Source: Sulfurimonas sp. HSL3-1 (lineage in GTDB: Bacteria > Campylobacterota > Campylobacteria > Campylobacterales > Sulfurimonadaceae). Taken from it: a stretch of DNA of 64,000 bases. Position 1 is the stretch's first letter, and every line of letters begins with the position of its first letter. Location: contig NZ_CP147920.1 in NCBI RefSeq assembly GCF_039645995.1, forward strand, positions 1,054,001 through 1,118,000, in the 5' to 3' direction. A program made the position numbers and the translations under genes. The notes under the pieces are model-generated. The model was not told the origin of the DNA. It was given only the letters and a program-made list of their open reading frames with translations, and made no database searches. Of the stretch, positions 23,660 to 35,066 are shown in pieces.

Positions 23660-24440
23660 TGCAGCGTCATGCGGCGGCTTTCAAAGAGCGCTCAGTGCCA
23701 ATTTCCGATTTTATTGAATGCGCTTCGACGAGTCGAAGCTCTTTTTTTGACGCTAGCTTCGGTTTGCCGAAGCGCATTAATCAATAGGCTCAGTGTCGTT
23801 AAGCATGCCGTGAAAGTCGCCCTGAAGGCATAAAGCCGAGAAAGGGCGAGCGATTCGCGCAACGACGATTTTCTTTTGGTTCTTTTCTTATGAAAAAGAA
23901 AAGAATGAATAGAGTGTATTCCTTTGCCACTTTTTTAGAAAAAGTAGCGCAAAAAGCGGCCTTTCGCGAATCGCTCATCCCTCCCGGCTTTATGCCTCCG
24001 GGATGGCTTATAAGGAGCGTTCAAGGCCAATGCTTGATTTATTTGAACGCGCTTCGACGTGTCGAAGCTCAATATTTTTCAGTTAGCTTTGGTTCCCGAA
24101 GCGTATTTAAATCAATAGGCAGAAGGTCGGGATGTGTGCTTTATAAGCCGTTCCGGAGGCCATACGACGGGAGGAACGTGCGATTCACATCACGACGATT
24201 TTCTTTGGGTTCGTTTCTTTGTAAAAAGAAAGGAATGAAGGGAATATTTTCTTGCCACTTTTTTAGAAAAAGTAGCGCAAAAAGCGGCCTTTCGCAAATC
24301 GCTCATCCCTCCCGGCTTTGGGCCTCCGGGATGGCTTATAAGGAATGCTCAAGGCCAAGCCCCAATTGATTGGATGCGCTTCGGCGTGCCGAAGCTCTAT
24401 ATTTCCATTAGCTTCAGTCCCTGAAGCGCGTTAATCAATG
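23660..24440. repeat. Array 1 of a palindromic intergenic repeat, three units
   Basis: Units with a period of 325-330 bases fill the gap between the divergent lipoprotein and radC genes. Marks: hairpin H1 (GCTTCGAC/GTCGAAGC) at 23722, 24051 and, as GCTTCGGC/GCCGAAGC, 24378; hairpin H2 at 23756, 24086 and 24411; inverted 36-base arms at about 23824-23859 with 23965-24000 and 24154-24188 with 24293-24328; a core with ACTTTTTTAGAAAAAGT and CTTTTCTT...AAAAGAAAAG. The same unit is found at 45.35-45.85 kb. Short open frames inside it are not genes. Confidence 0.85.
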
Positions 24441-26038: not shown

Positions 26039-29008
26039 CTATTTTGGTGCTTTCTCCATATACTCTTCGCTTTCTTCCGCCGCCATCATGGCGTTGCCGG
26101 AAATAGCATTGGCATAATTCGAAGAATTAGCCGCTTTCTCCGTAGAAGAACCGAGACTCCCTCCGCCATCATAGAACTTCTCTATAAAGCCCATAATCTT
26201 ATCGAGTACTCTCGGAACGATTTTTTTGCGTTCAAGCAGTTTCGGTTTGACGTTGAGCGTATTGGCGATGTCGTCTTTTAGCGGAGGCCTGCCGTCGTAG
26301 AGGTAGGTGTCGATAACCCTGTTGACTTCTGCTTTGTTGAGATCCTCTTCTTCGCAAAGTTCGTCAAAAGCTTTGACCTGCTCTTCGTCCCAGAATTTCT
26401 CGAACGCATCATCGATGAGATCGTCGTCTTCGATGTGCATCAGGTGGTCGTCGATGAACTTCTCGATCAGCTCGCGCTTGCTGCGGAGGCCGGGCTGAGC
26501 GTTGATGATGCTGACGATGGTGTCACGCTGCTTCTGCTGCTCTTCTGTTTTGGCCTTTCTATATTTGGCCAGGAGTTTGAGGATATAGGCAACATTGATC
26601 TCGTCCTTGTGGATGAGCTCCAGCTCAAAGTCGATCTCCTGCAGGACAGAGACCTTTTCCGTTTCATTGCGGCTTTTGGTCCGCTCGTAAAGGTCGAGGT
26701 ATTTGGACTTGTAGTCTTCGAAGAGTTGCTCCGCCATGGAGAGGTTGTTCCAGTCGAAGTCGGCGAATCCCTCCAGAATATTCCTCACCCGCATCAGTTC
26801 CCGGAATGCCTTGATGAATTCCAGCTGTTTCTCTTCGTCGATGATAGCATCGACGCTGTTGATGCTCGGGGCGATAGCAATGAGCTTCGCGAAAGCCTCG
26901 TTGAACTTTTCGACATACTCTTCGTAAGGCCCCATGAGAATCTTGTCTTTTTTATCCAGATCAGAGAAGAGGGCAATGGCGTCGTCGGTCGCTGTTTTTA
27001 GGTTGCGGAAGCAGACAATATTCCCCTGCGATTTCGTCTCGCCCAGAATGCGGTTGGTGCGCGAGAAGGCCTGGATAAGGCCGTGGTACTTCAGGTTCTT
27101 GTCGACGTAGAGAGTGTTGAGGGACTTGGAGTCGAAGCCCGTCAGGAACATGTTGACGACGAGGAGGATGTCGACTTCACGCTGTTTCACCCGTTTGGAG
27201 ATGTCGTTGTAGTAGTTGTAGAAGCTCTGGCTGTCTTTGGTGCTGAACTTCGTGCCGAACATAGCGTTGTAGTCGTTGATGTACTCGTCGAGCTTCTCGC
27301 GGCTGTGCTTGTTGATGTGCTCTTCGTCCACTTTCGTCTCGTCGAAGTCGATCAGCCCGTTGGCGTCTTTGTCCTCCTCATTGGCGGTGTAGGAGAAGAT
27401 CGTAGCGATCTTGAGGTCGTGCTTTCTACTCTTAAAGGTCTCGTAGTACTTGGTGAGCATGTCCACGCTGCCGACGCACATCATCGCCGTGAACTCTTTG
27501 GAATGGGTTTTACGAGGATGGACAGAGAGGATGTAGTCGACGATCTTTTCGATTCTGTAGGGACTTTCCAGCACTTCCTGGGTGTTGATGGCCTCCACTT
27601 CGATATCGAGCTCGTTGGCGCTCTCTTTCTCCTTGTATCGCCCGACGTACTCCACGGAGAACTTCAGGACGTTGTCGTCGCTGATGGCATCGGTGATGAC
27701 GTAGCGGTGCAGGCGGTCGCCGAATAGGTCGGCGGTCGTGCGTTTGCCCAGCTTGTTCCCGACGGCGTTCTCTTCGAAAATAGGCGTCCCCGTAAAGCCG
27801 ATCATCTGCGCCTTTTCAAAGAAGCGGGTGATGTTGCGGTGGGTCTCACCGAACTGGCTGCGGTGGCACTCGTCGAAGATGAAGACGATGTGCTCATCGC
27901 GTAGCTGCTCCATCTCATTTAGGTAGCGCTTTTTGCTGATAGCGGTGTTGAGCTTTTGGATCGTCGTGATGATGAGGTCTGTCTGGACGCTTTGGCCTTT
28001 TTTGTCTTTGTAGCGACCTAGGAACTGGTCGACGAGGATCTTCGTATTGTCCGTACCGTCGACGCTTCCTTCGGCAAAGCTGTTGAACTCCTTGGTCGTC
28101 TGGAAGTCGAGGTCCTTGCGGTCGACGACGAAGACGACCTTGTGCACATGCGGGAGCTTGACGAGGATCTGCGAGGCCTTGAAGGAGGTGAGGGTCTTGC
28201 CCGAGCCAGTCGTGTGCCAGATGTAGCCGTTTTTATTCGTATTTTGCACCCGGTCGATGATTGATTCGACGGCATGGTACTGGTAGGGGCGCAGCACCAT
28301 CAAAATCTTCGGCACCTCCGCCAGGACGATGTACTTGCAGATCATCTTGGAGATGTGGCAGCGCTCCAGGAAGACCGAGGTGAAAGCTTCGAGGTTGTGG
28401 ATGTTTTTGTTTTCTTTGTCTGCCCAGAAGAAGGTTTGTTTGAAGGTTTGCTTTTTGTTGTTGGCGTAATACTTGGTGTTGACGCCGTTGGAGATGACGA
28501 AGAGCTGCACGTAGTTGAAGAGGGCGCTGTTGTAGCCGTAGGAGTGGCGCTGGTAGCGGTTGATCTGGTTGAAGGCCTCCTTGAGCTCCACACCCCGGCG
28601 TTTGAGCTCGATCTGCACGAGAGGCAGGCCGTTGATGAGCAGGGTGACATCGTAGCGGTTCTTATACTTACCTTCGATGGTTACCTGCTGGGTGACCTGG
28701 AAGAGGTTCTGGCACCAATGCTCCGAGTCCAGGAACTCGATGTAAGAAGTCGTGCCGTCGTCCTTGGGGAGGGCGAACTTGTCGCGGAGGATCTTCGCTT
28801 TTTCGAAGACGTTGCCCTTGTTAAGGTGATTAAGAATGCGGGCGAACTCGGTGTCGCTCAGCGTGGTCTTGTTGTGCTTTTCGAGCTGGTGTTTGAGGTT
28901 TGCTTTGAGGGCCGCTTCATCTGTGATGAGGACTTTTTCGTAGCCCAGTTCTTCGCTGAGCTGTTTGACCAGGTTGGCTTCGAGGACGGCTTCGGGTTGG
29001 GTGCTCAT
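26039..29008 (-). CDS. hsdR: Type I restriction enzyme, R (restriction and translocation) subunit
   Basis: HsdR pumps DNA past the methyltransferase and cuts it. The nuclease domain has D and ExK in RYDVTLL...PLVQIELKRRG (about residues 118-140). The SF2 motor has Walker A TTGSGKT, VVDRKDL, FDECHRSQFG, MIGFTGTP and the late motif FSRTNRILG. A helical C-terminal segment (about 888-947, EVNRVIDTYLYDGRPPLKDD... to FIEKFYDG) is the EcoR124-type C-terminal region that contacts the methyltransferase; a tail of about 40 small and acidic residues follows. The start overlaps the upstream HEPN/Abi-like gene by four bases (ATGA). Confidence 0.96.
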   Translation of the reverse strand: MSTQPEAVLEANLVKQLSEELGYEKVLITDEAALKANLKHQLEKHNKTTLSDTEFARILNHLNKGNVFEKAKILRDKFALPKDDGTTSYIEFLDSEHWCQNLFQVTQQVTIEGKYKNRYDVTLLINGLPLVQIELKRRGVELKEAFNQINRYQRHSYGYNSALFNYVQLFVISNGVNTKYYANNKKQTFKQTFFWADKENKNIHNLEAFTSVFLERCHISKMICKYIVLAEVPKILMVLRPYQYHAVESIIDRVQNTNKNGYIWHTTGSGKTLTSFKASQILVKLPHVHKVVFVVDRKDLDFQTTKEFNSFAEGSVDGTDNTKILVDQFLGRYKDKKGQSVQTDLIITTIQKLNTAISKKRYLNEMEQLRDEHIVFIFDECHRSQFGETHRNITRFFEKAQMIGFTGTPIFEENAVGNKLGKRTTADLFGDRLHRYVITDAISDDNVLKFSVEYVGRYKEKESANELDIEVEAINTQEVLESPYRIEKIVDYILSVHPRKTHSKEFTAMMCVGSVDMLTKYYETFKSRKHDLKIATIFSYTANEEDKDANGLIDFDETKVDEEHINKHSREKLDEYINDYNAMFGTKFSTKDSQSFYNYYNDISKRVKQREVDILLVVNMFLTGFDSKSLNTLYVDKNLKYHGLIQAFSRTNRILGETKSQGNIVCFRNLKTATDDAIALFSDLDKKDKILMGPYEEYVEKFNEAFAKLIAIAPSINSVDAIIDEEKQLEFIKAFRELMRVRNILEGFADFDWNNLSMAEQLFEDYKSKYLDLYERTKSRNETEKVSVLQEIDFELELIHKDEINVAYILKLLAKYRKAKTEEQQKQRDTIVSIINAQPGLRSKRELIEKFIDDHLMHIEDDDLIDDAFEKFWDEEQVKAFDELCEEEDLNKAEVNRVIDTYLYDGRPPLKDDIANTLNVKPKLLERKKIVPRVLDKIMGFIEKFYDGGGSLGSSTEKAANSSNYANAISGNAMMAAEESEEYMEKAPK

Positions 29009-29811
29009 TTATCCTCTTTACTCTCAGTATAGGTCTTATATAAAAAGATTGCCATAGAACCTGCCATATTAACTGCTAACTCACCATGGCGCTCCAGAGG
29101 TTTTACTTTTGTCTTAGTGCTTCCATGGGCATCCCCTAGTTTATTTCTCAAAGTTCCTAGACCATTAATAATGCCGCTGGCTCCACCAAGAATTTGTTTG
29201 AAAATCGCTTCTTGATGTTGTTCTGGAGCAAGATTTAAATGTTTTTGCACCTTTTTATATAATTCAGATAGATCCATATTGACATCATACTCTATGTCTT
29301 GCTCATCTAGAATATGTTTTAAAACACTTTCGATGAGAGTCCTTGCCATGGTAATAGCACCCTCGGGGTCATTACCTTTGCGTTCTATTGCTTTGATCCA
29401 ATATTCATGGATATGCTTTTCATCAAAAGTTATTGTTTCTTCTATTGGGGCAAGTGTTTGGAATTCTAATTTATCAAGTAGTGGTAAAAACTCATTTTTT
29501 ATAAATATTCTTCTTTCTTCGTAAGTCGGAAATTTATTTTTAATAAAATCCCAAAACTGTCTTACATCTCTATTTTGTTTTAGCCAGATTGGTAAATGCT
29601 GTTCAAAGCTTTTGTTTTGTACAAGCCGGTTTCTGAGTATTGTGTATATTTCGTCATCACGATTAGCACCTGCAGCCATATCACTAAATTTATCATGTGC
29701 AAAACTAACAAGCTCATAGCCAGTGATTGTATTAACTTTGTGAAGTAATGCTTCCCTTTGTTTTTGAATTAGTTGTTGAGTACTTTCAAAAAATTTTAGA
29801 AGATTTTCCAT
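29005..29811 (-). CDS. Abi-C/HEPN-like protein embedded in the hsd locus
   Basis: A 268-residue protein whose C-terminal half matches the abortive-infection C-terminal (Abi_C) pattern: GNDPEGAITMARTLIESVLKHIL, a helix pair, then LGTLRNKLGDAHGS. R222-N-x5-H229 fits the Rx4-6H catalytic motif of HEPN ribonucleases. The N-terminal half is helical and unknown. The open frame extends upstream to 29952, but those codons lie in the hsdR/hsdS scar; ATG 29811 follows the scar. It is low in GC. A defence role is inferred from family and position directly before hsdR. Confidence 0.7.
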   Translation of the reverse strand: MENLLKFFESTQQLIQKQREALLHKVNTITGYELVSFAHDKFSDMAAGANRDDEIYTILRNRLVQNKSFEQHLPIWLKQNRDVRQFWDFIKNKFPTYEERRIFIKNEFLPLLDKLEFQTLAPIEETITFDEKHIHEYWIKAIERKGNDPEGAITMARTLIESVLKHILDEQDIEYDVNMDLSELYKKVQKHLNLAPEQHQEAIFKQILGGASGIINGLGTLRNKLGDAHGSTKTKVKPLERHGELAVNMAGSMAIFLYKTYTESKEDK

Positions 29812-29819
29812 GTTGCACC

Positions 29820-29891
29820 TCACACAAGCATCTGCTGGAGCAGTCTTTTTTTGGATTGATTGACGAGGCTGGCTTCGGGTTGAACACTCAT
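29820..29891 (-). pseudogene. Scar 1: first codons of a lost hsdR fused to the last codons of a lost hsdS
   Basis: A 23-codon frame begins MSVQPEASLVNQ, close to the start of the intact HsdR (MSTQPEA...NLVKQ), and ends KKRLLQQMLV-stop, close to the end of the intact HsdS (KKALLQQMFI-stop). DNA identity is partial, with silent differences, so the parts came from other hsd alleles. It lies in the spacer between the PLD and Abi-like genes. Confidence 0.7.
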
Positions 29892-29909
29892 GTTTTTCGA
29901 GCTCTAATC

Positions 29910-31091
29910 TTAATAGGTAATGATATCCAGCATTGCGGCCCGTACCTTCCAAACCTTTCGTTCTTCATCACTAGAAGGTTCCAAGCTTTTATACCAAGGA
30001 GTATCATGTATATTCACAATAACCTCGTCCCAATATCTTTCATAATCATGTTGTTTGAGCTCATCCATATTAAAATCTCTATAAACAGGATAGGTATTAT
30101 TCTTTGTTACACAATAAAAAATGTCAGGTCTTTTCATCGCTAATAGTCTACTCAAGCTTTTTACCCCAAATCCGTAAGGCACGTTTGATTGGACAAAATT
30201 AACAAACTTCATGTACATTTCTTTAGAAACCTCGCCTTCTAAAGGAATCGCATCTAATGCTTTTGAAAATTCGTCAGCTGATTCTATGATTTGCTTTTTA
30301 AAATAGGGAGAGACCATGTGACCGAAATACATCCAATTAACGTCATGCTCTCCATAGTTAATGGTGCCGGCAATTTGTCTTACGATGTCATCTGGCATTT
30401 CACTCAAACTGCTATATTTTTTAAAATACTCTTGTACATGTTCTAGTAATTTCAAACGTTCTTCCAGTGAATCGTCTAAAGCATGTTTTGCTTTGTCAAA
30501 AAAATTTTTCCAACTTAATAAGTTAATTGGAGTTTCAGTCATTAATTGTTGAGCATTTTCATTGGACTTATCTACATTGTTTCTATTATTTTCTTGTGCA
30601 TTATAGTCTTTCAAATATATTTGATATTTTTCGTGGGTCATCCGATAAGCAAGTGAAAAGTACTTGTTGATTTCATCTAAAATATTATCGATGAATGTCT
30701 TGGTGTCAGCATCTTGACTATTTAGATGAACCATCATCTCAATATTATTTGCAAGCCCTCCACGTGTGAAGTTTGCGCTGCCTATTAGACACTCCCAATC
30801 TGATTTAGAGTTCATAAACAAATAAATCTTAGGATGAAAAATAACACCTTTAGTACTAAACATATATTTGACGCTATTTACATTCAAGAAAGTTTCTATG
30901 AACTCAGGTGAAGTGTTGTAACCGGATACACCGACTATCATCATAGAGATTTTTTTTGAATAATTTAAAAGAGCTTGGGAAGAATCCGAACCTAAAGTAG
31001 CCCATGCGGTGGCGATATAAATCTCTTGATATTTTTTTATTAATGAGGTCATTTTTTTATCAATCTTCTTCGCATCACTGATAATATTCAT
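29910..31091 (-). CDS. Phospholipase D-like nuclease in the hsd locus
   Basis: The N-terminal half carries one HKD motif: IFHPKIYLF, then about 12 residues later CLIGSANFTRGG. This arrangement is typical of PLD-type nucleases (Nuc, BfiI and DISARM DrmC families). The C-terminal half is helical and contains YGFGVKSLSRLLAMKRPDIF, like a segment found in some restriction-associated proteins, but I cannot name the domain. With one HKD motif the enzyme would have to work as a dimer. GC content is well below the chromosome, which suggests transfer. AAGGAAGATC precedes the ATG. Confidence 0.8.
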   Translation of the reverse strand: MNIISDAKKIDKKMTSLIKKYQEIYIATAWATLGSDSSQALLNYSKKISMMIVGVSGYNTSPEFIETFLNVNSVKYMFSTKGVIFHPKIYLFMNSKSDWECLIGSANFTRGGLANNIEMMVHLNSQDADTKTFIDNILDEINKYFSLAYRMTHEKYQIYLKDYNAQENNRNNVDKSNENAQQLMTETPINLLSWKNFFDKAKHALDDSLEERLKLLEHVQEYFKKYSSLSEMPDDIVRQIAGTINYGEHDVNWMYFGHMVSPYFKKQIIESADEFSKALDAIPLEGEVSKEMYMKFVNFVQSNVPYGFGVKSLSRLLAMKRPDIFYCVTKNNTYPVYRDFNMDELKQHDYERYWDEVIVNIHDTPWYKSLEPSSDEERKVWKVRAAMLDIITY

Positions 31092-31114
31092 GATCTTCCT
31101 TCTTTCTTATTGCT

Positions 31115-31191
31115 TTACACAAACATCTGCTGAAGCAGTCCTTTTCCGAATTGCTTGTTTTTATCAGTAAGTGTTGATGCTCGGTACTCAT
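31115..31191 (-). pseudogene. Scar 2: lost hsdR start joined to an hsdS tail
   Basis: An ATG overlaps the stop of the upstream gene as ATGA, exactly as the real hsdR start does at 29005-29008, and opens MSTEHQHLLIK. The sequence then passes, in another frame, into TDKNKQFGKGLLQQMFV-stop, an HsdS C terminus. It fills the spacer between the HEPN-like gene and the PLD gene. Confidence 0.65.
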
Positions 31192-32201
31192 TCTTCATCT
31201 TTGGCAATGTATTGTTTCACAAATGCAAGTAGTGCCTTCGTGACTCTTTCTACTGCTTCACGTCTCTGTAATAACTTAGGCCTATGTTTCATAGTGTCTA
31301 CTATCGCATCGGGTAGAGGAACACGATGATCAAATTGATATGTCTCAACAATTTTTAGAAGCTCGTTAATATAAAGATTTTCATCCTGACAAAGTGTCGT
31401 TATTGCTTCTTCACTACCTTCTAAGCTTAATAGGTCTTTGTATCGCTCTTCAATTGTGTCACTAATATCGCGTTCTTCTTTTATTGGTTCAGCATCTTCC
31501 TTTTTATAGACTTGCTCTGTCATTTCTTCTAGTGGCTCAATCTCTTCTTCTGAGACTATTTCTGGCTCAATCTTTTCTTGATCAAGGAGATAGTCTTGAA
31601 GTTGTTCTTCGTAGGATGTGTAGTCTTGTTCATATAGCGCTTTGCTGTATTTTACATAACCACCTAGTGGGAATGAATCATCTAAAGAGCCGTTAAAGTT
31701 AGGATTTTCTTCATAGGAAATTTGCTCGATTCTCGTTATTTCTAAAGCAAAAAAATGCTTAAGCATATAGACAATGACCACTCCAGTAAATTCTTCTATA
31801 AATTTTGCAAATCCTTTAGAGCTACACAAAACTTTAGGAACTGGCTTGCCATGCGCAATATCACCTCTATGCGTACGAATTTCACCTAGCAAATGAATGG
31901 GGTGTCTAAAGTGATAAATAAACTCTGCTTCAAATTCATCACTTAGTTCGCCAAGTTTGTTCACAGTAGTGCTAAACAGTTTTTGAAATGGCCATTCTCT
32001 CATATCTTTCTCAGTAAGAGAATTGTCTAGTCTCAATAAAATCGTTTTAGAGATACCTTCGATTAATGCTTTGCAAGCTTCAATAGCAATATCAGGATGT
32101 GGAGTAAGATTTGTTTCCACTTTTTCTATGAGAAGTTCGTAGTAGCTAAACTCTCCATATTTTTCTGAGTTTTCAGCGATAAGTGTTCTTACGGAATCCA
32201 T
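31188..32201 (-). CDS. HEPN-like protein with an HsdR-like C-terminal docking segment
   Basis: The N-terminal 150 residues repeat the Abi-C pattern (HPDIAIEACKALIEGISKTIL ... LGEIRTHRGDIAHGKP); R109 or R112 with H117 fit the HEPN Rx4-7H motif. An acidic linker (about 190-260) follows. Residues about 277-330 (ELLKIVETYQFDHRVPLPDA... to FVKQYI) align without gaps to HsdR of this locus: 19 of 53 positions are identical by eye, including TY.xD.R.PL.D.I..T and PKLL.R. That HsdR segment contacts the methyltransferase in type I enzymes, so this protein may bind the M-S complex. It lies ten bases after hsdS. Confidence 0.7.
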   Translation of the reverse strand: MDSVRTLIAENSEKYGEFSYYELLIEKVETNLTPHPDIAIEACKALIEGISKTILLRLDNSLTEKDMREWPFQKLFSTTVNKLGELSDEFEAEFIYHFRHPIHLLGEIRTHRGDIAHGKPVPKVLCSSKGFAKFIEEFTGVVIVYMLKHFFALEITRIEQISYEENPNFNGSLDDSFPLGGYVKYSKALYEQDYTSYEEQLQDYLLDQEKIEPEIVSEEEIEPLEEMTEQVYKKEDAEPIKEERDISDTIEERYKDLLSLEGSEEAITTLCQDENLYINELLKIVETYQFDHRVPLPDAIVDTMKHRPKLLQRREAVERVTKALLAFVKQYIAKDEE

Positions 32202-32211
32202 TAGTGCTCTT

Positions 32212-33507
32212 TTATATAAACATCTGTTGTAGTAGTGCTTTTTTAAATTGCTTGGCGTTTTGCAGCTCTTTGGAAACGAGGTCTATCTTTGTGTCGATGG
32301 CGGAGAGAAAATCGGCTATCTTGGTTTGTTCTTCTTTTGAAGGAAGTAAAAACTTCACGTTTGACAAATTGTTTTTCGAGATTCCTAATACCGATATACC
32401 CGTTGCCGATTTCATAATCTGATTTCTAATATTGTTTGTCTGCATCAGATAGCTGGCAAACCCAAGTGCCATTACATCATTTTTGTCCCTGGCAATGTAT
32501 GTATGCAAACCCGCTAAAAGCTTTTCATTCTGCAAATCTATCAACTCAATTGTTTTACCAATATCTTTGTAGTCTTCAGAGGCGTCCGCAATAACCAAAT
32601 CTTTCACTTGACAATACTGTTCATCTTTTATCTTACTGATTTCTATATCGTCGTTGAGGAAGGGTACGTTTTCTTTGTTTATGTGGAAATTAGAACGATA
32701 TTTTGTATGGATGTCCCCATAATGAATGTTTTTGACCCTTCCTTGTACATCATTCATCAGAGCTCTTGAAAAGCTGTTCGTGTTGATGAAAGAGTAAATC
32801 TCTCCAAATAGCTTCTCTTTCCATTCCGGAAACTCACTCTTGTCATCCGCTCTGAAGCGAATCTCCTGCGAGAAGATTTTTTGCATCCCCCCTTTTTTGT
32901 ACTGCTCAAGCAGCTCCTGTTTTTTAGTGAGCTTTTCGATTTTGGTATCGACGGCGTTGAGGAAAGAGGCGATTTTTTGTTGTTCAGGTTTCGAAGGATA
33001 GTGTAAAACAAACTTTTCAACTATTGTATTATTGAAACTTTGTTGCTTCGTACCTTGTGCATACTTGTAATAAAGGGGTATGCCATATTTTAGATACCAA
33101 TAAAACAAAAACTTAGTATGTATTTCGTCTGTTTCATAAAATGCCATACATGACTGATTTGTCGTAGCTGGAATATCATTGATTGCACATTTACCTCGTG
33201 TACCAGGAGCTTCTAATCCTGTAATCGCAATAAAAAATGTACCCACTGGGTAAAGGCGTAAATTTGTATCTTTGATTGCTTGATCAGAGATTTTTTCAAT
33301 TGTGTCATTAATATGACCAAAATTTAATTCACCACTAGTTATCCAAAGATTGTTTCCTTGAAAATAGTCTTTAACAAGTCTGCTGGGAGTCGATCCAGTT
33401 TTCAGGTTTGTATATAACTCTCCAATGAAATTTTCATGCCATTCATCACTAAACTCAGGAAACCGTAACTTCGGAACTTTGCTTACCGCAGTCATGGTAA
33501 CACTCAA
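32212..33507 (-). CDS. hsdS: Type I restriction-modification specificity subunit
   Basis: HsdS reads the two halves of the target. The protein shows two target-recognition domains, each followed by a conserved helix: PSKPEQQKIASFLNAVDTKI and PSKEEQTKIADFLSAIDTKI, and it ends KQFKKALLQQMFI. The near-identical helices are the internal repeat of the family and allow exchange of half sites. GC is low, as usual for HsdS, which is under diversifying exchange. The start overlaps the end of hsdM by four bases (ATGA). Confidence 0.95.
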   Translation of the reverse strand: MSVTMTAVSKVPKLRFPEFSDEWHENFIGELYTNLKTGSTPSRLVKDYFQGNNLWITSGELNFGHINDTIEKISDQAIKDTNLRLYPVGTFFIAITGLEAPGTRGKCAINDIPATTNQSCMAFYETDEIHTKFLFYWYLKYGIPLYYKYAQGTKQQSFNNTIVEKFVLHYPSKPEQQKIASFLNAVDTKIEKLTKKQELLEQYKKGGMQKIFSQEIRFRADDKSEFPEWKEKLFGEIYSFINTNSFSRALMNDVQGRVKNIHYGDIHTKYRSNFHINKENVPFLNDDIEISKIKDEQYCQVKDLVIADASEDYKDIGKTIELIDLQNEKLLAGLHTYIARDKNDVMALGFASYLMQTNNIRNQIMKSATGISVLGISKNNLSNVKFLLPSKEEQTKIADFLSAIDTKIDLVSKELQNAKQFKKALLQQMFI

Positions 33508-35066
33508 AACGGCGTCGGGATGCCGAGTTCATTACAAAACTCGGCGATCTGAGCATCGTTGGTTTTTATATCAGCATCGAGGGCTATAAGCTCGCCGGTG
33601 ACTGCATCCAGATCGACCGGCTCCTCCTCCTCGAAAGTATCGACGTAGCGGGGAATATTGAGGTTGTAGTCATTCTCCTTGATCTCCTCCAGCGTGGCGA
33701 GGTGGGAGTACTTCTCGATCGCCTCCCGGTTGCGGTAGGTGTTAATAATTTTCTCGACGTTAGCGTTAGTAAGGATATTCTGGTTTTTCGCCTTTTCGAA
33801 CTCGTTAGAAGCGTCTATAAAGAGGACGTTGTCGCTGGCTTCGCGGCACTTCTTGAAGACCAGGATGCAGGTTGGAATAGAGGTCCCATAGAAAATATTG
33901 GCTGGCAGGCCGATGACGGCGTCAAGGTAGTTGCGGTCCTCGATGAGATAGCGGCGGATGTGCCCTTCTGCCGCGCCCCGGAAAAGCACGCCGTGGGGCA
34001 GGACGACCGCCATGATGCCATTGTCGTCGAGGTGCTAGATCATGTGCTGCACAAACGCGAAGTCCGCTTTGGAAGCGGGGGCGAGCTTGCCGTACTGGCT
34101 GAAACGGTCGTCGCTCATGTGCAGCGGGTTCGCCGACCAGTGGGCGGAGAAGGGGGGATTGGCCACGACTGCTTCAAAGCGCTTGTCCATATGTTGCGGA
34201 TGTTCGAGGGTGTCTTCCTGTTTGATATCGAACTTGCGGTAGTGGACGTCGTGCATGATCATGTTCATGCGGGCGAGGTTGTAAGTAGTACGGTTGAGCT
34301 CCTGCCCGTAGAAGTTTGAGACGTCGTCGACCTCCTTGGCGACGCGCAGCAGCAGCGAACCGGAACCGCAGGTCGGGTCGTAAACCGATTTGAGCTTCGT
34401 CTTGCCCGTAGTGACGATCTTGGCGAGGATCTTGGAAACTTGCTGCGGGGTATAGAACTCCCCCGCCTTCTTACCCGCGCCTGCTGCGAATTGGCCGATG
34501 AGGTACTCATAGGCATCGCCCAGAACGTCCCGGTCGTGGTTTTTCAACTCAAAGTTAATGGCGTCGAGGTGGGAGAGCACCTTGGCAATTAGGGTGTTCT
34601 TTGCTGCCTCGGTCCGGCCCAGTTTAGTACTGGTGAGGTCGAGGTCTTCGAAGAGATGGACGAAATCATCCTCGCTCTCGTGCCCCATCGTCGTCTGCTC
34701 AATATTGCGAAGAATCTGAGTCAGGTCTTCCAGGATAAAGTTGTCTTCTTCACCGTTACCGCGTTTTGCAATCTGGCTAAAAAGCTCAGTGGGTTTGAGG
34801 AAATATCCCAGTTTCTCGATAGCCTCTTCCTGGATGGCCTCAAGGTACTCTTTACCGTCTTCGGTTTTTTCGTCAATATCGAGATACTTTATGCCATCTT
34901 CGGCAAGGATCTCATCGGCATAATCTTCCATCTTTTCGGAAAGGTATTTGTAGAAGATAAACCCGAGAATGTAGTCGCGGAACTCATCCGCATCCATCTT
35001 CCCGCGAAGTGTATTTGCAATGTTCCAAAGCTGCTGTTCTAAAATCTTTTTGTTCTCTTCACCCAA
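33504..35066 (-). pseudogene. hsdM: Type I methyltransferase subunit gene interrupted by an in-frame amber codon
   Basis: The first 343 codons encode the helical N-terminal domain and most of the N6-adenine methyltransferase fold: AAGAGKKAGEFYTPQQVS, DPTCGSGSLLLRVAKE (AdoMet site, about 222-237) and VVANPPFSAHW (catalytic NPPF, about 303). After FAFVQHMI a TAG (34035-34037) interrupts the frame; it continues HLDDNGIMAVVLPHGVLFRGAAEGHIR to the end. Homologs have Tyr or another residue here, so one base change explains it. The TTG start at 35066 has AAGGA upstream. The internal ATG at 34013 lacks a ribosome binding site. Confidence 0.85.

Follow-up and report, generated by a model that had tools for sequence, protein, structure and literature searches.

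Two short spacers that separate the accessory genes of a type IC-like restriction-modification operon in Sulfurimonas sp. HSL3-1 are probably recombination fossils, left behind as recombination between hsd operons stacked cargo genes in the slot between hsdS and hsdR. The spacers, referred to below as scar 1 and scar 2, lie in a 64,000-nucleotide stretch of a complete genome of 2.5 Mb (NZ_CP147920.1, positions 1,054,001 to 1,118,000; hereafter the window). Support for such stacking, as shown by comparison of sequences, may be read from the identity of the pieces that make up the scars, from an hsdS allele resembling that of a sister species, from the presence of similar fossils in 12 loci, from the constant order of hsdR and hsdS pieces, and from the enrichment of fossils in loci with several cargo genes.

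On the minus strand of the window the locus runs hsdM-hsdS-A-scar 2-B-scar 1-C-hsdR, where A, B and C are cargo genes. The type IC-like hsdM (33504..35066) is split by an in-frame TAG at 34035-34037 (codon 344), with Pfam N6_Mtase and HsdM_N matches on its two halves, and codon 344 is not a stop in the orthologue of the sister species G304. The true copy of hsdS (32212..33507; Methylase_S, E=2.4e-26) ends in the family-conserved KQFKKALLQQMFI followed by a stop. The type IC, EcoR124-like hsdR (26039..29008; EcoR124_C, E=1.3e-72) begins in an ATGA overlap with the stop of C; its product matches PDB 2w00 (EcoR124 HsdR) over most of its length (E=2.9e-180) and is 39% identical to plasmid-borne R of the EcoR124II type. 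By their Pfam, PADLOC and PDB matches the genes are identified as hsdM, hsdS and an EcoR124-type hsdR, and the locus is type IC by descent; because of the stop codon in hsdM, the methyltransferase or the whole restriction operon may be dead in this genome, and the operon is possibly inactive, unless the TAG is a sequencing error. The three cargo genes are embedded between hsdS and hsdR on the same strand (29005-32201), an arrangement of the darTG type, and are AT-rich, with a GC content of 33-36% as against 52-53% for hsdM and hsdR. To the left of the locus, window positions 23900-24400 hold a sequence that recurs at over 30 sites in every sister genome. The same chromosomal slot is differently occupied in sister species: G304 has hsdM-hsdS-one different cargo-hsdR, with an hsdR 95% identical to that of the window; G191 has a different type I system and other genes, together with a 3' stub of window-type hsdR (L198 2124-2431) that can be taken as a sign of system replacement; and G359 has unrelated genes.

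Scar 1 (29820-29891, minus strand) translates as MSVQPEASLVNQSKKRLLQQMLV followed by a stop, that is, as an hsdR start joined in frame to an hsdS end. Its hsdS part (29820..29866), which closes with NQSKKRLLQQMLV and the stop, is identical to the hsdS 3' end of G304 at 40/44 nt, and its hsdR part (29865..29891, encoding MSVQPEASL), running from CAACCCGAAGCC to CCTCG, agrees over a core of 17/19 nt with the 5' end of both the window's own hsdR and that of G304. When the scar was shuffled, 0/300 versions reached the score of the hsdS part and 0/300 that of the hsdR part. In an nhmmer search of about 2.9 Mb the hsdS part was recovered at E=5e-4. By itself the hsdR part gave E=42, or about 0.002 when limited to the ~100 nt where it is expected, and it is weak by protein profile, its support being the nucleotide match. 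Blastn of the locus against G304 aligned 29822-29865 with the hsdS 3' end at 91% and 31114-31157, in scar 2, with the same end at 93%, with E values of about 1e-11 and 1e-12 for the hsdS parts of the two scars. Homology at the scar junctions is short, and in scar 1 it permits two alternative alignments. An 8-bp microhomology (GTCAAGCA) was considered there and dropped, as it demands an extra 12-bp deletion; a direct join that shares 2 bp (CG) offers the simpler account, and no microhomology is claimed.

Scar 2 (31115..31191, minus strand) begins with an ATGA that overlaps the stop of gene A and passes through an intervening stretch into an hsdS 3' end at 31115-31157, which is identical to that of G304 at 40/43 nt (0/300 shuffles equal its score; nhmmer E=1e-8). 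The scar is open in the hsdS reading frame from an ATG within the end of gene A (MKNEYRASTLTDKNKQFGKGLLQQMFV and stop). The sole pointers to an hsdR start in this scar are ATGAGTACC and the overlapping ATGA at the end of gene A: the best hsdR match was reached by 75-208 of 300 shuffles, which is no better than chance, and nhmmer gave no match to the hsdR part up to E=50. The original prediction, that both spacers consist of an hsdR start running into an hsdS end, is accordingly upheld for scar 1 and for the hsdS end of scar 2, which is the only demonstrable part of that scar; the hsdR-type overlap that it had emphasized is present in scar 2, but as evidence for an hsdR start it does not exceed chance. 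The alignment with hsdR 5' and hsdS 3' ends of relatives that it had proposed gave nucleotide matches to G304 alleles, for hsdS in both scars and for hsdR in scar 1. The scars share only 30/42 and 34/43 nt with the window's own hsdS, so their hsdS ends derive from a different, G304-like allele. The statement that the copies differ from the intact genes mainly by silent changes was not borne out by codon-by-codon comparison with G304 and with the window's own hsdS, and it is rejected for scar 1: relative to the G304 allele, the hsdS part of scar 1 carries four amino-acid changes and no silent one in its coding part, and scar 2 differs by a single altered codon (two bases) and a single synonymous substitution.

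For a survey of further hsd loci, hsdR relatives were gathered from 101/397 genomes of the class, 65 named loci, further members of family f7, and plasmids. A total of 95 loci were surveyed, of which 88 with both gene ends remained after removal of duplicates, 69 of these having an hsdS-hsdR gap of at least 200 nt; L125-L136 and L171-L185, members of HsdR subfamilies whose gene ends differ, do not figure in the final survey of scars. The hsdS ends of the family are very uniform ((E/Q)FKK(A/G)LLQQMFV and stop), so that extra copies are readily recognised. Extra hsdS ends and/or hsdR starts occur within the gap in 12/69 loci, namely the window and 11 others; ten were found by profile score (L037, L056, L069, L070, L079, L110, L113, L117, L217 and the window), and nhmmer together with a DNA pattern brought in L101 and L072. 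No hsdS-end match above the threshold was found in 1.22 Mb of forward-strand DNA beyond the gap or in 1.43 Mb of reverse strand; the best score in this control of ~2.6 Mb was 16, for an hsdR-start match, and the hsdR-start matches in the control were much weaker. The idea that non-coding spacer resembles conserved gene ends by chance would suit the hsdR part of scar 2; given the lack of comparable hsdS ends in the control and the outcome of the shuffles, it can be ruled out for the hsdS ends and for scar 1, and as a general account it is next to inconceivable. Fossils are present in 10/37 loci with at least two cargo ORFs and in 2/32 with at most one (Fisher p=0.028), and in 0/19 loci without cargo.

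The hsdS end is the commonest fossil, and direct fusions of an hsdR start (R') to an hsdS end (S') occur in four genera. In L217 (family f7), the stop of a RhuM gene overlaps ATGAG, from which the frame continues into MSIQSEATLEYKRQFYDKTKQFKKGLLQNMFV and a stop ahead of a PIN gene; the R' piece matches the resident hsdR at only 18/30 nt, which would fit a downstream module acquired from another operon. L069, from a Verrucomicrobiaceae MAG, has a kinase-like gene followed by hsdR codons 1-36 (ending in PTQPEQALENELVAQLGGLGVAEVVVADEA) joined to EQAWKKGLL-stop-QLFV-stop and then Fic, while in L101 (family f2) a Fic/Doc gene is followed by an hsdR start joined to an hsdS end, TTGAGCACCCAATCCGAAG through to AACTTTAAAAAAGGTCTGCTTGGGCAGATGTTTGTGT, and a second Fic gene. 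Both R' and S' are retained with cargo pieces between them in L037, L056 and L117, the order in L056 being hsdS-hsdR' (67 aa)-Fic-hsdS' end-hsdR. R' precedes S' in 7/7 loci that retain both pieces, as insertion of an hsdS'-cargo-hsdR module behind the start of an earlier hsdR would predict. Half-fossils, R' or S' only, are found in L070, L072, L079, L110 and L113; the hsdR start forms the in-frame N-terminus of a RhuM-like gene in L110 (9967), the hsdS end forms the in-frame C-terminus of a PIN gene in L113 (8929), and the duplicated hsdS end of L070 sits among local repeats, where slippage could have produced it. An 11-mer, TGTGTGAGGTG, follows the hsdS stop in 3/8 scars and in 1/88 true hsdS ends; its sites are window 29826 (minus), L037 9131 and two places in L113.

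In type IC-like operons the hsdS-hsdR interval is a slot for defence-type cargo. According to the proposed mechanism, a second operon of the same family (hsdS'-cargo-hsdR') would recombine at the locus, bringing new cargo beside the old. The redundant inner hsd copies would be trimmed or lost, or would never enter, and the remnant would pair the opening codons of the earlier hsdR with the closing ~15 codons of the incoming hsdS. The recombination between operons could take the form either of deletion within a tandem array, or of one homologous and one illegitimate crossover upon uptake of linear DNA. These two routes lead to the same junction, carry about equal weight and cannot be separated. 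The second, in which a linear hsdS'-cargo-hsdR' fragment is anchored by homology in hsdR and its other end is joined illegitimately just inside the resident hsdR, dispenses with a tandem array, yields the observed order and leaves one hsdR intact, and it fits the foreign scar alleles, namely the G304-like S' in the window and the R' of L217 and L037 that are unlike the resident hsdR. Recombination of this homology-facilitated illegitimate kind has been described in naturally competent bacteria and in E. coli conjugation (PMC3240628). By itself, however, the one-step route does not predict S' pieces that are always ~40-50 nt (up to ~110 in L037), and the extra cargo pieces between R' and S' in L037, L056 and L117 require more than one event there; we regard it as a serious candidate that falls somewhat short of an even chance. 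Collapse of tandem hsd operons by deletion from the first hsdR to the second hsdS is a candidate of much the same standing, and L056 and L037 resemble partly eroded tandem units. Against it, no tandem pair or intact tandem array was found in the loci examined, and in at least three scars the alleles differ from the resident genes (S' in the window, R' in L217 and L037), for which purely local duplication is insufficient and by which import is favoured. Of the original prediction, which had proposed just such a collapse, stacking of cargo by recombination between loci is sustained by the nucleotide matches to hsd alleles and by the same fusions in unrelated genomes, and passage through an intact tandem is one candidate route. 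The search for donor loci that it had suggested revealed no hsdS-PLD-hsdR among the loci examined, and did reveal relatives of other cargo genes directly after a true hsdS elsewhere, those of A in L048, L050, L072 and L107 and a C-like gene in L114.

Other readings of the scars concern how they were formed or why they were kept. The hsdS 3' end might be the attachment site of a site-specific recombinase, each cargo gene being a cassette that brings its own copy, a reading in line with the high conservation of hsdS 3' ends and their place as the commonest fossil. Seven loci, however, contain hsdR starts besides hsdS ends, the junction points differ in every case, the window locus is devoid of a recombinase gene, and protein constraint accounts for the conservation of the hsdS end; the variable junctions and included hsdR starts led to rejection of a cassette array, which is very unlikely. 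A different proposal, compatible with an origin by recombination, is that the scars were retained as short coupling reading frames that pass translation between cargo genes, entered through a stop-start overlap and left through the hsdS stop and a ribosome-binding site. Scar 1, L217 and L069 are in-frame fusions, the upstream stop codon is overlapped in scar 2, L217 and L101, and TGAGG follows the stop in 4/8 scars as against 4/88 true hsdS stops. The TGAGG contrast was, however, spotted post hoc, in-frame fusion is not significant (3/4), since L101 does not keep the frame and the fusion in L069 is interrupted by a stop, and the differences in scar 1 are all amino-acid-changing; retention for coupling is possible but improbable, and statistics lend it no support. 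Recombinational stacking of cargo is thus retained as the preferred reading, and on it a cargo gene with an hsdS end on one side and an hsdR start on the other might become singly exchangeable through homologous recombination. A further step, which we put forward tentatively, is that the hsdS-hsdR interval of type I operons behaves as a self-feeding array, in which the short hsd flanks would let later operons deliver or swap single defence genes without a transposase or integrase, the restriction operon itself then serving as the device of gene capture.

The cargo genes themselves are of defence type. Cargo C (29005..29811) is an AbiJ-like protein with an Abi_C (HEPN) C-terminus (Abi_C, E=3.7e-21; AbiJ, E=2.8e-24), and has a relative of 45-47% identity directly after hsdS in G106/L114. 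Cargo B (29910..31091) is a PLD-family nuclease-like protein (RE_NgoFVII, E=4.9e-10; PLDc_2), whose relatives among the 397 genomes of the class occur only in G248 and G359, neither within an hsdS-hsdR gap; in G359 (L167 6001-10381), which belongs to the same genus, a 517-aa PLD relative of B directly precedes the hsdM and hsdS of an unrelated type I system. Cargo A (31188..32201) has no Pfam match of its own, Abi_C included, while its homologues in L050 (E=3.8e-7) and L072 (1.8e-5) match Abi_C, and the motif R111-GDIA-H116 (R-GD-[IV]-[AS]-H-G, of the HEPN RxxxxH type) is invariant in five homologues. Its structural model is of low confidence (mean pLDDT 59), with weak HEPN matches such as 1ufb, 4nqf and 1wol. 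The N-terminal domain of A may be described as HEPN/Abi_C-like. Its last ~90 residues (~242-331) are homologous to the C-terminus of HsdR, with BLASTP E=3e-13 to the window's own HsdR and E values down to 5e-14 to HsdRs of other genomes; homologues in L072 and L107 carry the tail, those in L048 and L050 are tail-less, and no HsdR-like tail was found in other cargo families. We infer that the tail docks on the methyltransferase. The probable role of the HEPN, PLD and AbiJ-like cargo is that of an abortive back-up tied to the restriction enzyme. No ABC ATPase match was found in A, B or C, by which mark none of them is a PrrC anticodon nuclease. In EcoprrI, PrrC is encoded inside the operon, kept silent by the restriction enzyme and released when phage block restriction (PMC3874165), and by analogy a similar logic would suit cargo A.

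Defence genes gather in islands and nest within each other, and the route by which they arrive is, to our knowledge, mostly unknown. The scars offer a readable record of stacking within restriction operons, and are carried by the window genome, by other members of its class and by named Verrucomicrobiaceae and Desulfobulbaceae records. An hsdR start joined to an hsdS end provides a simple search signal for more captured defence genes, and the route of capture becomes testable in a transformable strain.

No literature report of hsdR-start/hsdS-end scars was found in a search that covered sources other than subscription papers and preprints (e.g., Miller et al. 2005 on Campylobacter hsd loci and Payne et al. 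2024 on embedded defences), where prior mention is possible. Cargo in the hsdS-hsdR slot is already known, and the scars there may be new. Defence-type cargo lies inside a type I operon, as in the window, in EcoprrI, which contains prrC, and in EPEC, where darTG2 is placed exactly between hsdS and hsdR at a site termed a potential recombination hotspot; the accessible parts of these accounts describe usually one cargo system, and neither scars of this type nor a stacking mechanism (PMC3874165, PMC12255303). The EcoR124I family (type IC) has a similar HsdR, while the window locus is loaded with cargo and its hsdM is interrupted by a stop. Homology-facilitated illegitimate recombination, with one homologous and one illegitimate joint, would give exactly the junction of hsdR start and hsdS end; it is known from experiments, whereas the case in the window is read from natural sequence (PMC3240628). 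In Geobacillus kaustophilus, an hsdR relic beside rloC has been taken as evidence of a lost hsd operon, and like the scars it is an hsdR leftover adjoining a defence gene; that relic, however, is large (568 aa), C-terminal and set in a transposon context (PMC2610378), whereas the window presents a fusion of gene start and gene end between stacked cargo genes.
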